Origin: Streptosporangiaceae bacterium
GTDB lineage: Bacteria > Actinomycetota > Actinomycetes > Streptosporangiales > Streptosporangiaceae
Direction: 5' to 3'
Assembly (NCBI GenBank): GCA_025964695.1
Contig: JAOPYK010000074.1
Coordinates: forward strand, 62,001-126,000
DNA: 64,000 nt
The position numbers were made by a program, and so were the translations under genes. Below the pieces are notes generated by a model. It had not been told where the DNA came from. It was given only the letters and a program-made list of their open reading frames with translations, and did no database searches. Shown piece by piece: positions 54,824 through 64,000 of the stretch; the first letter of the stretch is position 1; every line of letters begins with the position of its first letter.

Positions 54824-55804
54824 TCAGTGCCCGCAGCCGGGGTCGCCGGCGTGCTCGTGCGGCTCCTCCTCCGCGGCGACGTGCCGCGGCCCGTGCGGAT
54901 CCTCGCAGTGGAATGTTCCGGTGTCCCCGGTCTGCGCGTGATCGACCTCGAGAGTGCTGTGGCTGATGCCGTACGAGCTGTACAGCACCGCCTGCAGGTC
55001 CCGGCGTACGGCGTGGCAGTCGCCGCCGGGCTCCACCAGCACGTGGGCCGACATCGCCGCATACCCGGAGGTGACCTCCCAGACGTGCAGGTCATGGACC
55101 TCCACCACGCAGGGGCGCTGGGCCAGCCGGGTACCGACCTCGACGGGATCCATGCCGGAGGGTGCCGCCTCCATGAGCACCCGGCCCGCCGAACGGATCA
55201 GCCCGTACCCGGCCTTGAGCATGAGCGCAGCGATGATCAGCGAGGCGATGGCGTCAGCCCGGGCGAACCCGGTGAGCCAGATGATCAAGCCGGCGATCGC
55301 GGTCGCGGCGAAGGCGTACAGGTCGTTGAGAACGTGCTGGAACGCGCCCTCGATGTTGAGGCTGGTACGGTCCGCACGGCCGATCAGCCGGGTGGCGACC
55401 AGATTGATCACGATGCCGGCCAGGGCCGTGCCGAGCACGGGGAGGCCGGCCACCTCGGGCGGTGAGATCAGGCGGTGGATCGCCTCGTACACGAAGTAAG
55501 CGGCCAGCAGGATCAGCGTCAGCCCGTTGAGCTGGGCGGACAGGATCTCCGACCGCTTCAGCCCGAAGGTGTAGCCGCCCTCTGGGGGCCGGGCCGCGAG
55601 CCGCATCGCGACCAGCGCCAGCGCGATCGAGAACGCGTCGGTGAGCATGTGGGCCGCGTCGGAGAGCAGGGCCAGTGAGCCGGAGAGCAGGCCCACGACG
55701 ACCTCGGCCGCCATGAACGCCAGCAGCAGCGCCAGCGCACCGGCCAGATACCGGCGATCGGCCTCGGCCGACACCCCGTGCCCGTGCCCGTGTCCGGCGC
55801 CCAT
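54824..55804 (-). CDS. Cation diffusion facilitator (Zn/Co/Cd efflux)
   Basis: 326 residues. His-rich start MGAGHGHGHGVS, six hydrophobic segments, and the metal-site motif SLALLSDAAHMLTDAFSIALAL (HxxxD in TM2) with its partner VLNDLYAFAA (HVLND) in TM5. The C-terminal cytoplasmic domain ends in a His/Cys tail (EPHEHAGDPGCGH). Exports divalent metals by proton exchange. ATG 55804 shares one base with the ArsR stop (TGATG), so the two are coupled. Confidence 0.94.
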   Translation of the reverse strand: MGAGHGHGHGVSAEADRRYLAGALALLLAFMAAEVVVGLLSGSLALLSDAAHMLTDAFSIALALVAMRLAARPPEGGYTFGLKRSEILSAQLNGLTLILLAAYFVYEAIHRLISPPEVAGLPVLGTALAGIVINLVATRLIGRADRTSLNIEGAFQHVLNDLYAFAATAIAGLIIWLTGFARADAIASLIIAALMLKAGYGLIRSAGRVLMEAAPSGMDPVEVGTRLAQRPCVVEVHDLHVWEVTSGYAAMSAHVLVEPGGDCHAVRRDLQAVLYSSYGISHSTLEVDHAQTGDTGTFHCEDPHGPRHVAAEEEPHEHAGDPGCGH

Positions 55805-56193
55805 CAGGCGTCTCCGTCGTGCACGATGTGGTCGAGCGCCATGTCGAGCAGCATCCGCACATGCGAGTCGTCCAGCCGGTAGTAGGCCATCCGGCCCGAC
55901 CGGCGCACGCGTACGACTCGATGGGCCCGCAGCAGCCGAAGGGCGTGGGAGGCAGCGGACTCGCTGTGCCCCGTGGCGGCGGCGAGGTCGCACACGCACA
56001 TCTCGCCACCCTTGAGCAGCGCCGTGATCATCCGCAGCCGGCCTGGATCGGCGAGCAGCCCGAACACCTTGGTCAGTTCATCGATCGTCTCGGCGCCGGG
56101 CATGGCGGCCGACACGGCGCTCACCCGCTCAGGGTCCACCACCCGGATGGCCCAGCCGCCGGCGGCCGTCTGCTCGTATGAATGGACGCTCAC
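55804..56193 (-). CDS. ArsR/SmtB-family metal sensor
   Basis: 129 residues from GTG 56193. Winged helix with KVFGLLADPGRLRMITALL, CVCDLAAATGHSESAASHALRLLRAHRVVRVRRSGRMAYYRLDDSHVRMLLDMALDHIVHDGD. The last helix has DSH-(x)10-H type residues of the alpha-5 metal site (SmtB/NmtR-like), and CVC in the recognition helix may add ligands. A -10 box ends 6 bases before GTG 56193, so I prefer that start over ATG 56214. Coupled to the CDF exporter, which it should repress. Confidence 0.9.
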   Translation of the reverse strand: MSVHSYEQTAAGGWAIRVVDPERVSAVSAAMPGAETIDELTKVFGLLADPGRLRMITALLKGGEMCVCDLAAATGHSESAASHALRLLRAHRVVRVRRSGRMAYYRLDDSHVRMLLDMALDHIVHDGDA

Positions 56194-56199
56194 ACGTAG

Positions 56200-56205
56200 A
56201 GTATA
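56200..56205 (-). promoter_or_regulatory. -10 box of the arsR-cdf operon, likely leaderless
   Basis: TATACT on the minus strand, exactly 6 bases before GTG 56193. An ATG frame upstream (56214) would include this box as coding sequence. The repeats TGAGCG at both sides may be part of the operator. Confidence 0.5.
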
Positions 56206-56244
56206 TGCGCTCACGTCGGGGCCGCCTGAGCGGGAGGGCGGGAG

Positions 56245-56985
56245 CTAGGCGGGGGGGCGGGGATCCTCTTCGGCGTCGAAGTCGCCGTTCCAGGCCCAGG
56301 CCAGCGCCCTGGGCAGCCCCCACCGGCCGAGCTCGCTGAGCCGGCCGTGCTCGTCGATCGCGCCGGTCGCCTCCCAGAGCTCCAGCAGATAGGTGAAGCC
56401 CTCTTCGATGACCTCGACGTCGTCCGGGTCGGCCTTGCCCTCGATCTCGGGGCACTCGTCGGCGTACTCGACCAGGTCGGCAGGCTCGGCGGGTGCGCCG
56501 ACCCCCGCCCGCACCAGCCCGATCACGGCTCCGGCCCAGTCCCCGTGCTGCAGGGCCATGATCGTGGACTGCCGCTGGACGGACATCGGAATCTCACCGA
56601 AGCCCGCGATCAGCGAGCCGCTGGCAGCGATCCATAGTTCGCGGTCGTCGGCGGGCGGCTTCGCGGACCAGCCGGCTCCACCCGGGATGTAGCTGTACGG
56701 CGGGCGCCTGGCGGCGATCCCGGCCCGGATCCGCTCGGCGGCGTCGTGCAGCTCGTCGTGCGGCGGAGCGGCCCGTACGAGCTCGGGAAGCGCCTCCCGC
56801 AGAAGCTCGACCGCCCCGCCCTCGGCCTCTTCCCACTCGGCCAGGAACTCGTCCTCGTCCAGGTCGAAGAGGTCATCGAGCTCGGCGAAGTCAGCGTCGT
56901 CGAGATCCGCGGCCGTGCCGTCGTCGCCTTTTCGCGGCACGAAAGGCCGCACGTTGCTGTCGTGGCGGTCATCGTCCTCTGCCAT
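56245..56985 (-). CDS. Acidic protein at the end of the MoxR-VWA cluster, function unknown
   Basis: 246 residues starting MAEDDDRHDSNVRPFVPRK. Strongly acidic first third (AADLDDADFAELDDLFDLDEDEFLAEWEEAEGG) and a folded C-terminal part with GDWAGAVIGLVRAG, ELWEATGAIDEHGRLSELGRWGLPRALAWAW. ATG 56985 has no ribosome binding site, but TAACGT lies 6 bases upstream and overlaps the VWA stop, so the gene may be on its own leaderless message. No known domain recognised; it looks like an actinomycete-specific helper of the cluster. Confidence 0.75.
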   Translation of the reverse strand: MAEDDDRHDSNVRPFVPRKGDDGTAADLDDADFAELDDLFDLDEDEFLAEWEEAEGGAVELLREALPELVRAAPPHDELHDAAERIRAGIAARRPPYSYIPGGAGWSAKPPADDRELWIAASGSLIAGFGEIPMSVQRQSTIMALQHGDWAGAVIGLVRAGVGAPAEPADLVEYADECPEIEGKADPDDVEVIEEGFTYLLELWEATGAIDEHGRLSELGRWGLPRALAWAWNGDFDAEEDPRPPA

Positions 56986-56991
56986 AGGACC

Positions 56992-56997
56992 ACGTTA
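56992..56997 (-). promoter_or_regulatory. Possible internal -10 box overlapping the VWA stop codon
   Basis: TAACGT on the minus strand, 6 bases before ATG 56985; the TAA is also the stop of the VWA gene. Supports independent leaderless expression of the acidic protein. Confidence 0.4.
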
Positions 56998-58164
56998 GCG
57001 ACCTTGGGCGTTCCGTTCCGACCATTCCCTGAGGTCGCGCCGTTCGATCGCGGCCGCCATCAGGTCGGGGAACACGTCGGGGGTGCAGGCGAAGGCGGGC
57101 ACCCCCAGCGCGGCCAGCGCCGCGGCGTTGTCGTGGTCGTAGGCGGGCGCGCCCTCGTCCGACAGGGCCAGCAGCACCACGACCTGGATCCCGGCGCTCG
57201 TCATCGCGGCCACCCGCTTGAGCATCTCGTTGCGGACCCCGCCCTCGTAGAGGTCGCTGATCAATATGAAGATCGAATCGGTCGGGCGGGTGATGACGCC
57301 CTGGCAGTACGCGATCGCGCGGTTGATGTCGGTGCCGCCGCCCAGCTGGGTGCCGAACAGCACCTCCACCGGGTCGTGCAGCTGGTCGGTCAGGTCGACG
57401 ACGGAGGTGTCGAACACCACCAGTGACGTGCGCAGCGACCTCATCGAGGCCAATACCGCGCCGAACACGCTGGCGTACACCACGGAGGCCGCCATCGAGC
57501 CGCTCTGGTCGATGCAGAGCACTACGTCACGCTTGACCGCCTGCTGCCGCCGGCCGTATCCGATCAGCCGCTCGGGCACCACGGTCCGCTGCTCGGGCAG
57601 ATAGTGCCGCAGGTTGGCGTGGATGGTGCGATTCCAGTCGACGTCGCCGGGGCGTCTGGGCCGCAGCACCCGCGCCGACCGGTCCAGCGCCCCCGTGATC
57701 GCCGATCGGGTCCGCTGAGCGAGCCGCTTCTCCAGCTGTTGGACCACCCCGCGGACCACCGACCGCGCCGACTCCTTGGCCCGCTCGGGCATGACCTGGT
57801 TGAGGGACAGCAGCGTGCCGACGAGATGCACATCCGGCTCGACCGCCTCCAGCATCTCCGGCTCCAGCAGCATCCGGGTCAGATCGAGCCGCTCCAGCGC
57901 GTCCTTCTGCATGACCTGCACGACCGTCGACGGGAAGCAGGCCCGGATGTCGCCCAGCCAGCGGGCCACCTTCGGCGCCGAGGCTCCCAGGCCGGCGCTC
58001 CGCCGGCCGCCCGCGCCCCGGCCCTCACCAGCGCGGCCCGATGCGTACAGCGCCTCCAGCGCTCCATCCATCGTGGCGTCGGCACCCTCGAGGGTGACCC
58101 CGGTCCCCTCGGCTGCCTCGCCGCCCAGCACCAGCCGCCACCGCTTCAACCGCTCGTCGGTCAT
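56995..58164 (-). CDS. VWA-domain protein (MoxR-partner, CoxE-like)
   Basis: 389 residues from ATG 58164 (AGAGG 5 bases upstream). The first half is helical. The von Willebrand A domain has the full MIDAS: CIDQSGSMAAS near residue 220, GGTDINRA and ISDLYEGGVRNE. A VWA beside a MoxR ATPase normally forms a metal-dependent assembly or insertion machine (as in CoxD/CoxE or RavA-ViaA). Here DUF5682 sits between them. The open frame of 19 extra codons upstream is unsupported. Confidence 0.9.
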   Translation of the reverse strand: MTDERLKRWRLVLGGEAAEGTGVTLEGADATMDGALEALYASGRAGEGRGAGGRRSAGLGASAPKVARWLGDIRACFPSTVVQVMQKDALERLDLTRMLLEPEMLEAVEPDVHLVGTLLSLNQVMPERAKESARSVVRGVVQQLEKRLAQRTRSAITGALDRSARVLRPRRPGDVDWNRTIHANLRHYLPEQRTVVPERLIGYGRRQQAVKRDVVLCIDQSGSMAASVVYASVFGAVLASMRSLRTSLVVFDTSVVDLTDQLHDPVEVLFGTQLGGGTDINRAIAYCQGVITRPTDSIFILISDLYEGGVRNEMLKRVAAMTSAGIQVVVLLALSDEGAPAYDHDNAAALAALGVPAFACTPDVFPDLMAAAIERRDLREWSERNAQGR

Positions 58165-58204
58165 CTTGGCCTCTTTCGTTCCTGCGCGGCCCGCCCCTTC
58201 GTGA

Positions 58205-60691
58205 TCATCGCGGATCACGTAGGAGGGTGGTCCAGCCGAGGATCCCGGCGACGGTGCGTACGGCGGGAGCGGCGCGTTCGCCGTCCAGATCGTCGCCGGC
58301 CACGTCGCCGGCCACGTCGGCCGCAGCGCGCGGGGTGGCGTCCAGCCGCCGCACGCGCTCGCCGATCGAGCGCCGCTCGGGTGCGGCGTACTCGGAAAAG
58401 GTGCGGCGCAGCAGCGGCAGCACGTCGGTGAACGATCGCTCCGGCAGCCCCGAGATCCACTCGTCGATCAGGCGGAGCAGCGCGTCGTCGTGGACGAGCA
58501 CCAGCCCGCCGCCGGCCAGGAAACCCTCGATCCACGCCGCCGCCCGGGCGGGCGTCGCACCGACCGACACCGCCCTGGCCATCCGGTCCGCGACGTCGTC
58601 GAGTCGTCCGGCGTCGCGCAGCAGCCGGGTCAGCCGCCCCTCGAGCAGCCCGTGCAGCCCGGACCGGTCGATCAGGCTGGTCAGGGTGTCGTGCCATCGG
58701 GTCATGTGACCGGTCCGGGCCGTCGCGGTGGCGCCGCCGGTGACGGCCTCGGGGTTGCCGGTGTCCAGCAGGGCGAGGGCGCCGTTGACCTCGTCGGTGT
58801 GCTTGAGCAGCAGCCGGGCGGCGTCGTCGTCCAGCCCGCCCGCGGCGGGGGAGAGGCCGACGCACACGCGCACGACCAGCCCGTCCACGACGGCCCCCAG
58901 CGACCGCGTATCGGTGCCCCGCACGTCGCCGTAGCGCAGAGCCCGCACCAGTGCCGGCAGCGCCGCCATCAAGTGGACAACGTCGGTGTCCGCAGCGGCC
59001 CGGTCGGCGAGCGCCCGCATGACCTGCGGCAATGCCTGGCCCAGGTCCGCCAGCAGGCAGCGCTCGGCCAGCCCGGTCAGCCGCGGTAGCGCGCCCTCGT
59101 CCGGTACGGTCCCCGCGTCCGCGCCGCCGGCCAGCCGGTCGGCGAGCGCGACCGCCTTGGCGCCGGCGGCGCCCTGCACGGTCGTGCCCCAGGCGCCGGC
59201 CTCGATCAGCTCCACGTCGAACTCGGGTTTCCAGAGCAGGCTCCAGCTCTCGCGGAACGTGCCCTTGGCGCGGCCGGTGTCCTGTTGCGGCGTGCCCCAG
59301 TCGACGCCGAGCAGGCACAGCCGGTGCAGCAGCCTGCTGCGCTCCAGGTCGGTCGGTTTGCGCAGGTCGAGGTCGTGCATGGTGCCGCGGGCGTCCGGCC
59401 TGAATTTCAGCCGCCGCTGCTGGGCCTGCAGGTCCCGCTGCAGCGGCACCATCGGTGTGCTGTCCGGTACGGCCCCGAGCCGCTCGCCGACCACCATCCG
59501 GTGCTGGATCAGCTCGAGGGGGAGTTCCGCGCCCTCGCACAGCACCGACCGGGTGGCCTCGGTGACCTCCTCCAGCCCGGCCAGCGGACGGCCGCGCAGC
59601 GCCGCCAGCGCCTCCGCCAGCCGTACGGCCTCGATGACGTGCGCCGACGAGACCGGCAGGTCCTCGGCGCGCAGCACCCGGGCCGCCTCCGTCAGCCAGC
59701 GCTCGATGGGCCGGTCCGGGGCCGAGAACAGATGGTGGTACCAGCCCGGGGAGCGCACGCCCGCGCCGTAACCCGACCAGCTGGCCAGCCGGCCGTGCGT
59801 CCACGGGACCCAGGTGAGGTCGACCTTGACCTTGGGCAGCCCCCGCAGGATCTGGTCGTCCTTGCCGGCGCCGGTGGCCGAGGAGCGTGACGTGCTGAGC
59901 GCGGCCTCGATCGCCGGGACATGCCAGGCGCCGCAGACGACGGCCACCCGCTCGAACCCCTCCTTGAGGGCCCGGCGGAGCGTCCTGCGCATGTACGCCT
60001 CTCGGTGTTCCTCCCGCCGGGTGTAGTCCGCCGGCATCGGCGGGGCGTGCTCGCGCAGGGTCCGCATGGCCTCCGCGATGGCCTCGAACGGGGACGGCCC
60101 GGTGCCGCGGTGCTCGACCACGTCGTCCCACCAGCGCTCGGCGTCGTCGTATCCCGCCGCCTCCGCGAGCCACCCGAGGGGGTCCATCCGCACCAGCTCG
60201 GCCGGGGCGGGCGTCTCCTGGGCGCCCTGCGATCCGGGCTCCGGCTCCGGCTCTGGCTCGGGTCTGTCACCGAGCGGATCGGCGACCGGGTCCGGGATCG
60301 GGTCGGCCAGCTGGTGGGCGGCGGGCAGGTCGCAGAATCGCACGGGCACGTCCGCGGTCATGGCGTAGCGGACGGCGTTCCACTCCGGGGAGAACTCCGC
60401 GAAGGGCCAGAAGGCGGCCCGCCGCCCGGAGCCGCCGGCGGGCCGGACGTCGCCGTCCGCATCGGCCGGCTCGGGGGCCGCACCCGGGGGTTTGCCCCCG
60501 GGCACGTACGCCAGCAGCGCGACCGGGGGCACCATGCCGGGGTCGGCGGCCAACCCGACGATCGCGTCGGCCTCCGGCGGCCCCTCGATCAGCACGATGT
60601 CCGGCTTGTACTCCTCCAGTGCCCGGCCGAGCGTCCGGGCCGAGCCCGGCCCATGGTGCCGGATCCCGTAGGTGCGTACCTGGCCGGTCAA
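58205..60691 (-). CDS. DUF5682 protein with TraB/TIKI-like motifs
   Basis: 828 residues from TTG 60691, which overlaps the MoxR stop (TTGA) and has GGAGGTGTC upstream. Conserved N-terminal blocks: GIRHHGPGSARTLGRALEEYKPDIVLIEGPPEADAIV, FCDLPAAH, and VAVVCGAWHVPAIEA near residue 253. The paired HH/EGPPEAD and GAWH motifs are reminiscent of TraB/TIKI/ChaN metalloproteases, but I assign this only as inference. The long C-terminal part is helical. A large shadow frame lies on the same strand at 58215-60173. Confidence 0.85.
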   Translation of the reverse strand: MTGQVRTYGIRHHGPGSARTLGRALEEYKPDIVLIEGPPEADAIVGLAADPGMVPPVALLAYVPGGKPPGAAPEPADADGDVRPAGGSGRRAAFWPFAEFSPEWNAVRYAMTADVPVRFCDLPAAHQLADPIPDPVADPLGDRPEPEPEPEPGSQGAQETPAPAELVRMDPLGWLAEAAGYDDAERWWDDVVEHRGTGPSPFEAIAEAMRTLREHAPPMPADYTRREEHREAYMRRTLRRALKEGFERVAVVCGAWHVPAIEAALSTSRSSATGAGKDDQILRGLPKVKVDLTWVPWTHGRLASWSGYGAGVRSPGWYHHLFSAPDRPIERWLTEAARVLRAEDLPVSSAHVIEAVRLAEALAALRGRPLAGLEEVTEATRSVLCEGAELPLELIQHRMVVGERLGAVPDSTPMVPLQRDLQAQQRRLKFRPDARGTMHDLDLRKPTDLERSRLLHRLCLLGVDWGTPQQDTGRAKGTFRESWSLLWKPEFDVELIEAGAWGTTVQGAAGAKAVALADRLAGGADAGTVPDEGALPRLTGLAERCLLADLGQALPQVMRALADRAAADTDVVHLMAALPALVRALRYGDVRGTDTRSLGAVVDGLVVRVCVGLSPAAGGLDDDAARLLLKHTDEVNGALALLDTGNPEAVTGGATATARTGHMTRWHDTLTSLIDRSGLHGLLEGRLTRLLRDAGRLDDVADRMARAVSVGATPARAAAWIEGFLAGGGLVLVHDDALLRLIDEWISGLPERSFTDVLPLLRRTFSEYAAPERRSIGERVRRLDATPRAAADVAGDVAGDDLDGERAAPAVRTVAGILGWTTLLRDPR

Positions 60692-61779
60692 GACACCTCC
60701 CGGCAGGCCCGGTAGAAGTCACGCCACTCGGGACGCTCGCGGACGACGGTCTCGAGGTATTCCTGCCAGACGACCCGGTCGGACACCGGGTCCTGGACCA
60801 CGGCGCCGACGATGCCACCGGCCACGTCGGCGGCCCGCAGCATGCCGTCGCCGAAGTGCGTGGCCAGTACCCGGCCGCTGGTGATGACCGAGATGGCCTC
60901 AGCGGTGCTCAGGGTGCCGCTTGGCGACTTGAGCTTGGTCCGGCCGTCGTCGGTGCGGCCCGACCGCAGCTCACGGAAGACGGTGACGACCCGGCGGATC
61001 TCCTCCAGTCCGTCCAGCGGGCCGGGCAGTTCCAGGGACGCGCCGAGCTGGTCTACCCGGCGGGCGACGATGTCGACCTCGTCGTCGGCCGAGGCCGGCA
61101 GCGGCAGCACGACCGTGTTGAACCGGCGGCGCAGCGCGCTGGACAGCTCGTTCACGCCTCGGTCACGGTCGTTGGCCGTGGCGATGACGGTGAAGCCCTT
61201 ACGGGCCTGGACCTCGGTGTTCAGCTCGGGGACCGGCAGCGTCTTCTCGGACAGGATGGTGATGAGCGCGTCCTGCACGTCGGATGGCATCCGGGTGAGC
61301 TCCTCGATGCGGGCCACCGCACCGGTGCGCATGGCCCGCATCATCGGGCTCGGCACCAGCGCCTGCTCCGAGGGCCCGTCGGCGAGCAGCCTGGCGTAGT
61401 TCCAGCCGTACCGGATCGCCTCCTCGGAAGTGCCCGCGGTGCCCTGGACCAGCAGGGTCGAATCGCCGCTCACCGCGGCCGCCAGATGCTCCGACACCCA
61501 GGTCTTGGCGGTGCCGGGCACTCCCAGCAGCAGCAGTGACCGGTCGGTGGCGAGCGTCGCGACGGCGACCTCGATCAGGCGGCGCGGCCCGACGTACTTC
61601 GGGGTGATGGCGCTGCCGTCCGGCAGGTCACCGCCGAGCAGGTAGGTGGTGACCGCCCACGGGGACAACCGCCAGCCGGGCGGCCGGGCGCGGTCGTCGT
61701 GCTCGGCCAGCCGGGCCAGCTCACCGGCGTACTGCTGCTCGGCGTGCGGGCGCAGCACCTCTTCCTGCGGCGAGGTCAT
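60688..61779 (-). CDS. MoxR-family AAA ATPase
   Basis: 363 residues from ATG 61779 (AAGGAG 5 bases upstream). Walker A LLLGVPGTAKTW (residues 84-95, with A in place of G before the Lys), Walker B-like VARIEELTRMPSDVQDALI, sensor 1 VIATANDRDRGVNELSSALRRRF and a C-terminal lid. MoxR ATPases act as chaperones for VWA partners. The gene overlaps DUF5682 by 4 bases, and the DUF5691 gene ends 92 bases upstream. Confidence 0.93.
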   Translation of the reverse strand: MTSPQEEVLRPHAEQQYAGELARLAEHDDRARPPGWRLSPWAVTTYLLGGDLPDGSAITPKYVGPRRLIEVAVATLATDRSLLLLGVPGTAKTWVSEHLAAAVSGDSTLLVQGTAGTSEEAIRYGWNYARLLADGPSEQALVPSPMMRAMRTGAVARIEELTRMPSDVQDALITILSEKTLPVPELNTEVQARKGFTVIATANDRDRGVNELSSALRRRFNTVVLPLPASADDEVDIVARRVDQLGASLELPGPLDGLEEIRRVVTVFRELRSGRTDDGRTKLKSPSGTLSTAEAISVITSGRVLATHFGDGMLRAADVAGGIVGAVVQDPVSDRVVWQEYLETVVRERPEWRDFYRACREVS

Positions 61780-61871
61780 GGCAGCTCCTTCGGTTCGCGC
61801 TGGGTTCATGCCGGTTCGTCCGGATTCATTCGAGTCGGTCGGGGGATCACGCAGCGTGCGGTGTCGGCTGG

Positions 61872-63503
61872 TCACGACGGCGGGCGTGGCACGAGCTCCC
61901 GCACCATGTCGTGGCGGAAACGCAGGGTCTCGGTCAGCTCGGTGAGCGGCCAGCAGCCGGGATTCAGGCTGCTGAGCTCGTCCAGCCGGGGCGCGATGTC
62001 GGGCGTGAGCCGTTCGTCGGCGAGACGGCACAGCTGAGCCAGGAAGCGGGCCGAATCGCCGTGCGGGCCGCTGGCGCCGGCCGCCGGACCGGCCGGGGCG
62101 CCGCGCCGCAACTCCTCGGCCAGGATGCCGAGCACCGTGCCGGCCAGCGTCCCGGTCCAGGGTGCGGGGATGCGGTCCAGCACCCTCAGCAGATCCACCT
62201 TGCCGTCGACCCAGCGGATGAGGTCCGTGGCGGCCGAGTCCCGCTCGGGCTCGGGAAGCACGCCGAGCAGGTCGGCCAGCGCCTCGACCTCCTCCAGCAC
62301 CACTCCGCCCTTGAGCAGGGCCTGGGCCCAGCGGGCGTCGCGCTGCCGTACGGCGGCGCGGGCCCAGCCGAGGTGCACGTCAGGCGCGAAATCGTCGGCG
62401 ATGGGCAGGCACACGACCTCCATCGGGCTCGCCGGGCCGTGCGGGCCGAACAGGGTGGTCCACGTGGTCAGCGGGGTGCGCGCGATGATCTCCCGCAGCC
62501 ACGCGGCACGGGTGCCGACCGGCGCGCCCGAGCGGCTGTCGGGGACGAAGGAGCCGGCCGGGTGGAACGGCACGCCGTCGCGCCGCATCCCCTCGTCGTG
62601 GCCCTGCGGGGGCTCGACGATCACCCAGGTCTGGGTGCGCAGCCGCACGGTCCGGCGCTCGGGCCGCAGACAGGTCCGGGCCCGCTCCGCCATCCGCTCG
62701 CCGTACGCGGAGCCGGGCAGCCGGGCCAGCAGATCGGCGGCGACGGCCCGCACGTCCTTGGCGCGGTCGTCGAGGGCCTGCTCCAGGAACTCCTCGTCGG
62801 AGCCGGACAGCCCGGTCTCGAAGGTGGCCAGGAAGGCCACCCGGTCGGCGGCCGGCTCCTTGGCCCAGGTCTCCCGCAGAGCGGTCCGGGCCCGTTCCGG
62901 ATCCTCGGCGCGCAGCCCGCTCAGCCGGGTGACCCGCTGCCCCCGGGTACCGGTCTCCCAGACATCGGGCCCCCGGGTCCCGTCGCCGTCGGCGGGCGGC
63001 TCCACCCTCCCGGTGCCGGGCTCCGGGGTGATCGCCACCTCGGTGGTCAGGTATGCCCAGTCGGGGTTCTGCAGGGCCAGCCAGAGCCCGCGACGCCCGG
63101 CCGCGGCGGCGATGCGCGGCCGCAGCGTCCGATCGCCACGGCCCTTCTCGAGCAGGTCGGGCAGCAGCCGCGCGGGCACCCGGTAACCGCTGCGGGCCGC
63201 GGCGTCGAGCCACTCCGGCAGCATCCGGATCTGCTGCCCGCTCAGGATCTGCCGCAACCGGCGCGCGGCCTCGGGACCCACCGCGGGCAGGGTCTCGGCG
63301 GGTGCGGGCGCGATCGGCTCGGCCCGCAGCGCGCGGAACCCGGCCCGCCGTGCGGCCGTCAGCACCGCCGCCTGGTCGAGCAGCCTGCCCGCCGGATCGC
63401 CGGACCCGTCGGACACCGGAGCCGGTGCCTCGGGCAGCGTGGGCGCCTGCCGCCGCTGGGTGCCGAGCAGTGCCGCGGTGACGTGCTCCGTCCAGGTGCT
63501 CAC
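61872..63503 (-). CDS. DUF5691 protein (helical repeat-like)
   Basis: 543 residues starting VSTWTEHVTAALLGTQRRQAP. Matches DUF5691 proteins of MoxR/VWA loci: LDAAARSGYRVPARLLPDLLEKGRGDRTLRPRIAAAAGRRGLWLALQNPDWAYL, EEFLEQALDDRAKDVRAVAADLLARLPGSAY and a C-terminal FRHDMVRELVPRP. The many regularly spaced helices suggest HEAT-like repeats and thus a scaffold role. GTG 63503 overlaps the upstream gene by 4 bases (GTGA). Function unknown. Confidence 0.88.
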   Translation of the reverse strand: MSTWTEHVTAALLGTQRRQAPTLPEAPAPVSDGSGDPAGRLLDQAAVLTAARRAGFRALRAEPIAPAPAETLPAVGPEAARRLRQILSGQQIRMLPEWLDAAARSGYRVPARLLPDLLEKGRGDRTLRPRIAAAAGRRGLWLALQNPDWAYLTTEVAITPEPGTGRVEPPADGDGTRGPDVWETGTRGQRVTRLSGLRAEDPERARTALRETWAKEPAADRVAFLATFETGLSGSDEEFLEQALDDRAKDVRAVAADLLARLPGSAYGERMAERARTCLRPERRTVRLRTQTWVIVEPPQGHDEGMRRDGVPFHPAGSFVPDSRSGAPVGTRAAWLREIIARTPLTTWTTLFGPHGPASPMEVVCLPIADDFAPDVHLGWARAAVRQRDARWAQALLKGGVVLEEVEALADLLGVLPEPERDSAATDLIRWVDGKVDLLRVLDRIPAPWTGTLAGTVLGILAEELRRGAPAGPAAGASGPHGDSARFLAQLCRLADERLTPDIAPRLDELSSLNPGCWPLTELTETLRFRHDMVRELVPRPPS

Positions 63504-64000
63504 AGGACGAGGACCCCTTCTTCTTCGTGCCAGGCCGACAGCGCCCGCAGCCCCCGGGGAGACCACTCGCCGGCGACGGTCAGTGGGCCGCCGCCGGAAA
63601 CGGCCAGCAGCCGCCACGGGTCCGTCGCGTCGAGGGGCAGGGCGTCCCCGTGCGCGTCGACGAGCCGGTGGTCGCGCGACAGCCGTACGCTCTCGAGCAC
63701 GGCCGGCCAGCGGTCCAGCCACGGATCCAGGGCGAGCGCCTGGGCGTACTCCCGCAGGAACGCGCCGACCGTGCTGCCGGGCGGTGCCGCCGGGCCGGGC
63801 GCGCCGTGCCGGGTGACGATCAGGGCGCGCAGTGGCTGGGCGCCCGGGTAGAAGACGAGGTCGGCGTCCACGGCGGTGCCAGCCACAAGCGAGGAGTCCA
63901 GCGGCCGGCCCGGCGCGGCGAACGACAGCACGAGCGCCGGCGTGCGGGTCCGCAGGCCGCGCAGCCAGACCCGGCGGGTGATGAGCCGGTCCTGCTCGGA
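63500..64000 (-). CDS. SWIM-zinc-finger-type protein, C-terminal part
   Basis: The frame is open to the right edge, showing about 166 C-terminal residues: LRGLRTRTPALVLSFAAPGRPLDSSLVAGTAVDADLVFYPGAQPLRALI ... GEWSPRGLRALSAWHEEEGVLVL. The wording and position (just upstream of DUF5691) match SWIM zinc-finger proteins that head such clusters. The zinc finger itself lies beyond the window, so the call rests on its C-terminus and context. Confidence 0.6.
   Translation of the reverse strand, partial: SEQDRLITRRVWLRGLRTRTPALVLSFAAPGRPLDSSLVAGTAVDADLVFYPGAQPLRALIVTRHGAPGPAAPPGSTVGAFLREYAQALALDPWLDRWPAVLESVRLSRDHRLVDAHGDALPLDATDPWRLLAVSGGGPLTVAGEWSPRGLRALSAWHEEEGVLVL

Follow-up and report, generated by a model that had tools for sequence, protein, structure and literature searches.

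A stretch of 64,000 nucleotides from a Streptosporangiaceae bacterium (contig JAOPYK010000074.1, positions 62,001 to 126,000; G000:C31:62001-126000, hereafter the window) ends in adjoining genes for a SWIM zinc-finger protein, a DUF5691 protein, a MoxR-family AAA+ ATPase, a DUF5682 protein, a VWA protein and an acidic protein, which raises the question of whether these genes encode one machine and what such a machine might do. All six genes, with all their parts given below, are encoded on the minus strand, and their positions match those recorded in an initial annotation made from the sequence alone. The junctions are also as described there: the SWIM and DUF5691 genes overlap by GTGA (CTGTGAGC), the MoxR and DUF5682 genes overlap by TTGA (TCTTGACC), and the remaining junctions are gaps of 92, 40 and 9 bases. 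We propose, with a probability of roughly 0.45, that five of these genes encode one ATP-driven MoxR-VWA remodelling machine of the YehL type, coupled to a TIKI-like hydrolase.

The genomes of GTDB were scanned with a DUF5682 profile, at least 576 relatives were confirmed, and the best 80 loci were kept. All five core genes (SWIM, DUF5691, MoxR, DUF5682 and VWA) were present in 70 of these 80 loci, in two fixed orders; since the kept loci are the nearest relatives, this fraction describes the window's type and not DUF5682 loci at large. The genes are collinear in 48 of the 70 full loci, as SWIM-DUF5691-MoxR-DUF5682-VWA, and in the other 22, mainly from Streptomyces, SWIM-DUF5691 is divergent from MoxR-DUF5682-VWA. 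Loci short of five genes are mostly cut by contig ends. The kept loci represent five phyla, with members of the Actinomycetota, Cyanobacteriota, Chloroflexota and Planctomycetota and the gammaproteobacterium Thiofilum. In collinear loci the genes are packed closely, with median spacings of -4 (SWIM/DUF5691), -4 (DUF5691/MoxR), 3 (MoxR/DUF5682) and -1 (DUF5682/VWA) bases.

The two large proteins also occur together. In an even draw of 149 genomes of the phylum, DUF5682 was found in 10, DUF5691 in 10 and both in 9, while among 60 relatives DUF5682 was present in all 25 that carry DUF5691; 27 of the 60 have DUF5682, and the two without DUF5691 carry divergent DUF5682 forms. The corresponding Fisher p values (7e-15 for the 60 relatives and 1e-12 for the 149 phylum genomes) are indicative, because the genomes are not phylogenetically independent. 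Fused forms exist as well. One open frame spans both SWIM and DUF5691 in 8 of 81 loci, among them loci from Nocardia, Actinoplanes-like genera and a planctomycete (Pfam was run on one of the eight), and a protein of about 1200 aa combines DUF5682 with VWA in the two paralogous loci L030 and L031; such fusions argue for direct contact. The arrangement of the five core genes is thus far beyond chance, and the module is real. Given the conserved order, the strict co-occurrence and the gene fusions, the set behaves as one machine, as the initial annotation had supposed. It had named rare co-occurrence or unconserved middle genes as the signs of an accidental cluster; what we found instead were complete modules in most kept loci and, among the 60 relatives, DUF5691 invariably accompanied by DUF5682. 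The idea that the genes are accidental neighbours without common function, to which we attach practically no credence, fits only the acidic sixth gene, whose link is confined to close relatives, and is refuted for the five core genes by order, co-occurrence and fusions across phyla.

The acidic protein (56245..56985; 246 aa, pI 4.1) matches no Pfam family. Its synteny is confined to genomes G149 and G150: the gene comes after VWA in a member of the same genus (77% identity) and in a member of a second genus within the family (65%). Weaker homologues elsewhere in the family lie on other contigs where positions are comparable, and it is found in 0 of the 80 kept loci. It is a local, lineage-specific addition outside the conserved module, so that the six-gene cluster first described reduces to five conserved genes. 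Nor was a constant seventh gene found within 4 kb in 41 loci, where the commonest neighbour family occurred in 7, all of them close Streptosporangiales-type relatives.

Variants of the module were also seen. Three cyanobacterial loci (L061, L079 and L093) have DUF5682 without the full module and look like reduced or solo versions; L079 retains only DUF5682 and VWA, though its sequence covers 4.9 kb upstream. In L025, L026 and L027, from one actinobacterial family (f27), DUF5691 is half-length (about 260 aa) and the module is otherwise complete. In Kribbella steppae (L051, 8694-9989, minus strand) a TnpB-like gene of the IS200/IS605 type separates MoxR from DUF5682 as an insertion, and L056 has a gap of similar size. 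A DUF5682 relative with 27% identity is encoded in the phage record MT835988.1 (11145-12752), a 14-kb 'Bacteriophage sp.' sequence from human faeces that is possibly host DNA.

The MoxR protein (60688..61779; 363 aa, AAA_5 137 bits) and the VWA protein (56995..58164; VWA_CoxE 192 bits; ATG at 58164, with an alternative GTG at 58218) are, judged by their motifs, a proper pair, in agreement with the initial annotation: Walker A is present in 90 of 90 MoxR homologues and the MIDAS motif DxSGSM in 90 of 91 VWA homologues. Published MoxR-VWA pairs spend ATP on remodelling a partner that the VWA protein holds. The window's operon type is a variant of such systems, and like RavA-ViaA, NorQ-NorD, CoxD-CoxE and CbbQ-CbbO it has a MoxR AAA+ motor and a VWA partner, with Walker A and MIDAS intact in the window. 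It differs from them in its MoxR subfamily, in the addition of a constant large DUF5682 protein and the SWIM-DUF5691 pair, and in having no conserved client enzyme adjoining. The window MoxR is 41% identical to YehL over 364 aa (E 1e-80), has no significant match to RavA (E 0.16) and is about 30% identical to the MoxR-like proteins of its own genome; in this comparison, which comprises YehL, RavA and the own-genome proteins only and has weak tree support, it probably belongs with the YehL subfamily. Seven MoxR subfamilies have been named, YehL among them, and E. coli K-12 has only one MoxR protein besides YehL (PMC3893208).

The closest known counterpart of the module is accordingly found in E. 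coli K-12, where yehL, yehM, yehP and yehQ stand in a row and encode MoxR, DUF5682, VWA_CoxE and SWIM proteins. Both operons have the order MoxR-DUF5682-VWA on one strand and a SWIM-finger gene, and the identities to the window proteins are 41% for YehL, 28% over about 550 aa for YehM and 36-37% for YehP. The differences are that E. coli lacks DUF5691, that DUF4132/WGR genes lie 5' of the E. coli type, and that YehQ has 614 aa and is encoded last, whereas the window SWIM protein has 443 aa and is encoded first. YehQ aligns with the window SWIM protein in the zinc finger alone (24 columns, E 0.085), and the idea that YehQ is the counterpart of SWIM plus DUF5691 is without support. DUF4132/WGR genes also precede the Streptomyces-family locus L032 and, in part, L028; these are actinobacterial yehLMP clusters of the E. 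coli type with upstream DUF4132 (YehI-like, MolR-like) genes, at 4000-14743 in L032 and 14221-19957 in L028. One genome, G128, has both this kind of yehLMP cluster and one like the window's. A single MoxR-DUF5682-VWA core is therefore common to at least two sister types, and there are paralogous types, L030/L031 and L033, besides. In L033 (5875-10316) the paralogous order is VWA-MoxR-DUF5682, with an open frame of 1100-1400 aa that matches only the first two thirds of DUF5682; similar long DUF5682 frames occur in genomes of the window's family.

The literature searched held no paper on the function of the yehM/yehL operon and nothing on DUF5682, on DUF5691 or on the SWIM/MoxR/VWA combination. 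The description of the locus as a poorly described system thus holds as far as function is concerned, but the module is not without precedent, since yehL-yehM-yehP-yehQ is a homologous operon and YehL a named MoxR subfamily.

The E. coli relatives also bear on the suggestion that the cluster is an anti-invader conflict system, in which SWIM-DUF5691 would sense the invader, MoxR-VWA would act as an ATP-dependent switch and DUF5682 would be a toxic effector, comparable with the vWA-MoxR ternary systems of Kaur et al. (2020). MoxR-VWA cores are indeed used in such systems, where MoxR and vWA likewise form a core in an operon (PMC7159879); DUF5682 is patchily distributed, with 10 positive genomes in the 149 of the phylum and 27 in the 60 relatives, and most of the bacteria that carry it are filamentous or of complex morphology, as in those systems. 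Against this, 97% of complete E. coli genomes (5284 of 5426) contain yehM, which for that reason is core in E. coli rather than part of an accessory island. The only PADLOC match was IetA (E 0.002), confined to 30 residues at the P-loop of the AAA domain, no VMAP model matched at E 0.01, and bpMoxR scored 22.4 bits with a cut-off of 27. The window type is without VMAP and without variable effectors, the effector being constant, and among phage and plasmid records no more than 1 and 36, respectively, contain a relative. SWIM, the Yeh genes, DUF5682 and DUF5691 are not mentioned in PMC7159879. Taken together, these results weaken the conflict reading, and we consider it distinctly unlikely.

What the machine might do is suggested by DUF5682 itself (58205..60691; 828 aa, TTG start, Pfam 918 bits). 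In 14 sequences, down to 24% identity, residues R11, H12, H13, P15, E36, G254 and H257 are invariant, and they make up a first GX2H motif, a glutamate 24 residues further along and another GX2H. The same pattern occurs in TraB/PrgY, in which the spacing from H21 to E45 is likewise 24. In a profile-profile alignment with PrgY of pCF10 as the TraB comparator, positions 7-265 of the DUF5682 profile aligned with PrgY 11-262 over 228 columns (E 0.00096), with both motifs and the glutamate in register, while DUF5691, taken as a control, gave E 0.55 over 7 columns. An AlphaFold2 model of DUF5682 (mean pLDDT 81) was compared with known structures by a second structural aligner, and the sole match spanning residues 1-273 was 7w5z_E (Z 10.3, 201 residues, rmsd 5.1). 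The PDB name of this chain, 'TraB family protein', agrees with the TraB-family subunit described in Tetrahymena complex IV (PMC10060162). These lines agree, each of them moderate alone, and the N-terminal domain of DUF5682 (residues 1-273, 59873..60691) appears to resemble the TIKI/TraB hydrolase fold. The candidate active residues are H12 (60656-60658), H13, E36 (60584-60586) and H257 (59921-59923). The rest of the protein is mostly helical repeat, with a C-terminal part at about residues 490-785 (58337..59224) for which the AlphaFold2 model gave helical-repeat matches only.

DUF5682 thus has in common with the TIKI/TraB/PrgY superfamily (TIKI proteases, TraB/PrgY, Ere esterases and ChaN) the two GX2H motifs and the glutamate spacing; its profile aligns end to end, and the fold predicted for it is similar. 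It differs in its additional 500 or so residues, mostly helical repeat, and in its place in an AAA+ operon. To our knowledge, no member of this superfamily has been found in an AAA+ operon, and as far as the literature searched shows, a TIKI/TraB-like domain in DUF5682/YehM is a new recognition. The initial annotation counted two large proteins of unknown function; no papers on either were found, but for DUF5682 a hydrolase-like domain can now be proposed.

Several points weigh against this assignment and the machine built on it. The hhalign probability of the DUF5682/TraB alignment is 22%, and the TraB alignment is shallow. No TraB chain appeared in the Foldseek top 50 for DUF5682, which held helical-repeat matches only. 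Pfam PF01963 (TraB_PrgY_gumN) reached 11.3 bits at the second motif region with a cut-off of 26.8, so DUF5682 would be a distant superfamily relative rather than a PF01963 member. The Tetrahymena TraB subunit is without the first histidine. Although proteins with the TIKI fold are established hydrolases that use 2His/2Glu sites, they can be non-catalytic, as in the PMT domain without catalytic residues (PMC6254334). Finally, the subunit roles beyond motor and adaptor are ones that we infer. Two further comparisons were uninformative: for the E. coli TraB protein YbaP no PDB relative was found, and TraB homologues in the phylum were too few, with one GumN-like match on a possibly stray contig.

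The SWIM and DUF5691 proteins stand at the other end of the module. The SWIM gene is cut by the right edge of the window, in which only the C-terminal part lies (63500..64000; Pfam SWIM 25.7 bits, cut-off 19.6); the full gene is G000:C31:125500-126831 and encodes 443 aa, with 831 bases beyond the edge. Its zinc finger, CSCPSRKFPCKH, is intact, and CxCPxxxxPCxH is found in 74 of 75 full-length SWIM homologues. The SWIM protein model consists of the zinc finger, helices and a beta domain for which no structural match was found, which is not evidence of a new fold. For DUF5691 (61872..63503; 543 aa, GTG start, Pfam 466 bits), we used a natural SWIM-DUF5691 fusion (L059, 949 aa), whose model has a pLDDT of 91. 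Its DUF5691 half best matches HEAT/ARM proteins (Z about 9), and DUF5691 looks like a HEAT/ARM-like helical-repeat scaffold; since these are repeat proteins, the match says 'scaffold' and no more.

In the machine that we propose, a MoxR hexamer would be the motor and the VWA protein the adaptor that transmits its pull to the bound partner. SWIM and DUF5691, which offer a zinc finger, a beta domain and a HEAT/ARM scaffold and are sometimes one polypeptide, would recognise the client. DUF5682 would be the effector: its predicted TIKI/TraB-like hydrolase domain would sit on a body of helical repeats, which in some loci is fused directly to VWA. On this view MoxR-VWA would remodel either the client or the hydrolase, the TIKI-like domain being the constant partner. 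ATP hydrolysis would either present the client to the DUF5682 active site or switch that site on, and the site, with its two GX2H histidines and the glutamate, may cleave a peptide or ester bond.

The same conserved histidines and glutamate could also bind a metal or haem, and a possible though unlikely alternative is a chaperone that inserts a cofactor or metal, in the manner of NorQ/NorD or CoxD/CoxE. Such a chaperone would remodel an apo-enzyme encoded elsewhere, and the TIKI-like domain of DUF5682 would hold the cofactor without cutting. The best-studied MoxR-VWA pairs serve enzyme maturation and metal insertion according to published work, the window VWA protein is CoxE-like, and ChaN is a haem-binding relative with the TIKI fold. 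The motif pattern of DUF5682, however, is that of the hydrolytic TIKI members. Known maturation MoxR-VWA pairs adjoin their client enzyme, whereas no enzyme is conserved beside this module (neighbours within 4 kb, 41 loci); with no conserved neighbour past the five genes, a maturation factor dedicated to a single enzyme is less likely, and the client would have to be encoded in trans.

The flanking genes have a bearing on the metal-linked role suggested earlier. On the 3' side of the acidic gene, translations judged by eye point to an ArsR/SmtB-like regulator (55804-56214) and, after it, a cation-diffusion-facilitator-like transporter (frame 54824-55999), together spanning 54824-56214 on the minus strand, and these genes may have been the source of that guess. 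In the 41 loci whose neighbours within 4 kb were compared, no ArsR/cation-efflux-like genes recurred, and a metal link finds no support in conserved neighbours. The gene 5' of SWIM, on the same strand past the right edge, encodes an M50B-like peptidase and is not among the recurring neighbours either.

The predicted TIKI/TraB-like domain gives DUF5682/YehM a concrete active-site hypothesis that can be probed by mutation, so that the machine's job becomes testable, and the hypothesis covers both the near-universal YehM of E. coli and the five-gene machine of five phyla. In its boldest form, which we regard as improbable for now, the module would be an ATP-dependent proteolytic machine of new architecture, widespread in bacteria as different as E. 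coli, actinomycetes and cyanobacteria and with no relation to the designs of Clp, Lon, FtsH and the proteasome, in which a SWIM/HEAT receptor and a MoxR-VWA motor feed or gate the TIKI-fold peptidase DUF5682. We know of no TIKI peptidase fold that is motor-driven; if the hypothesis is true, an AAA+ motor would here be linked to a peptidase fold.

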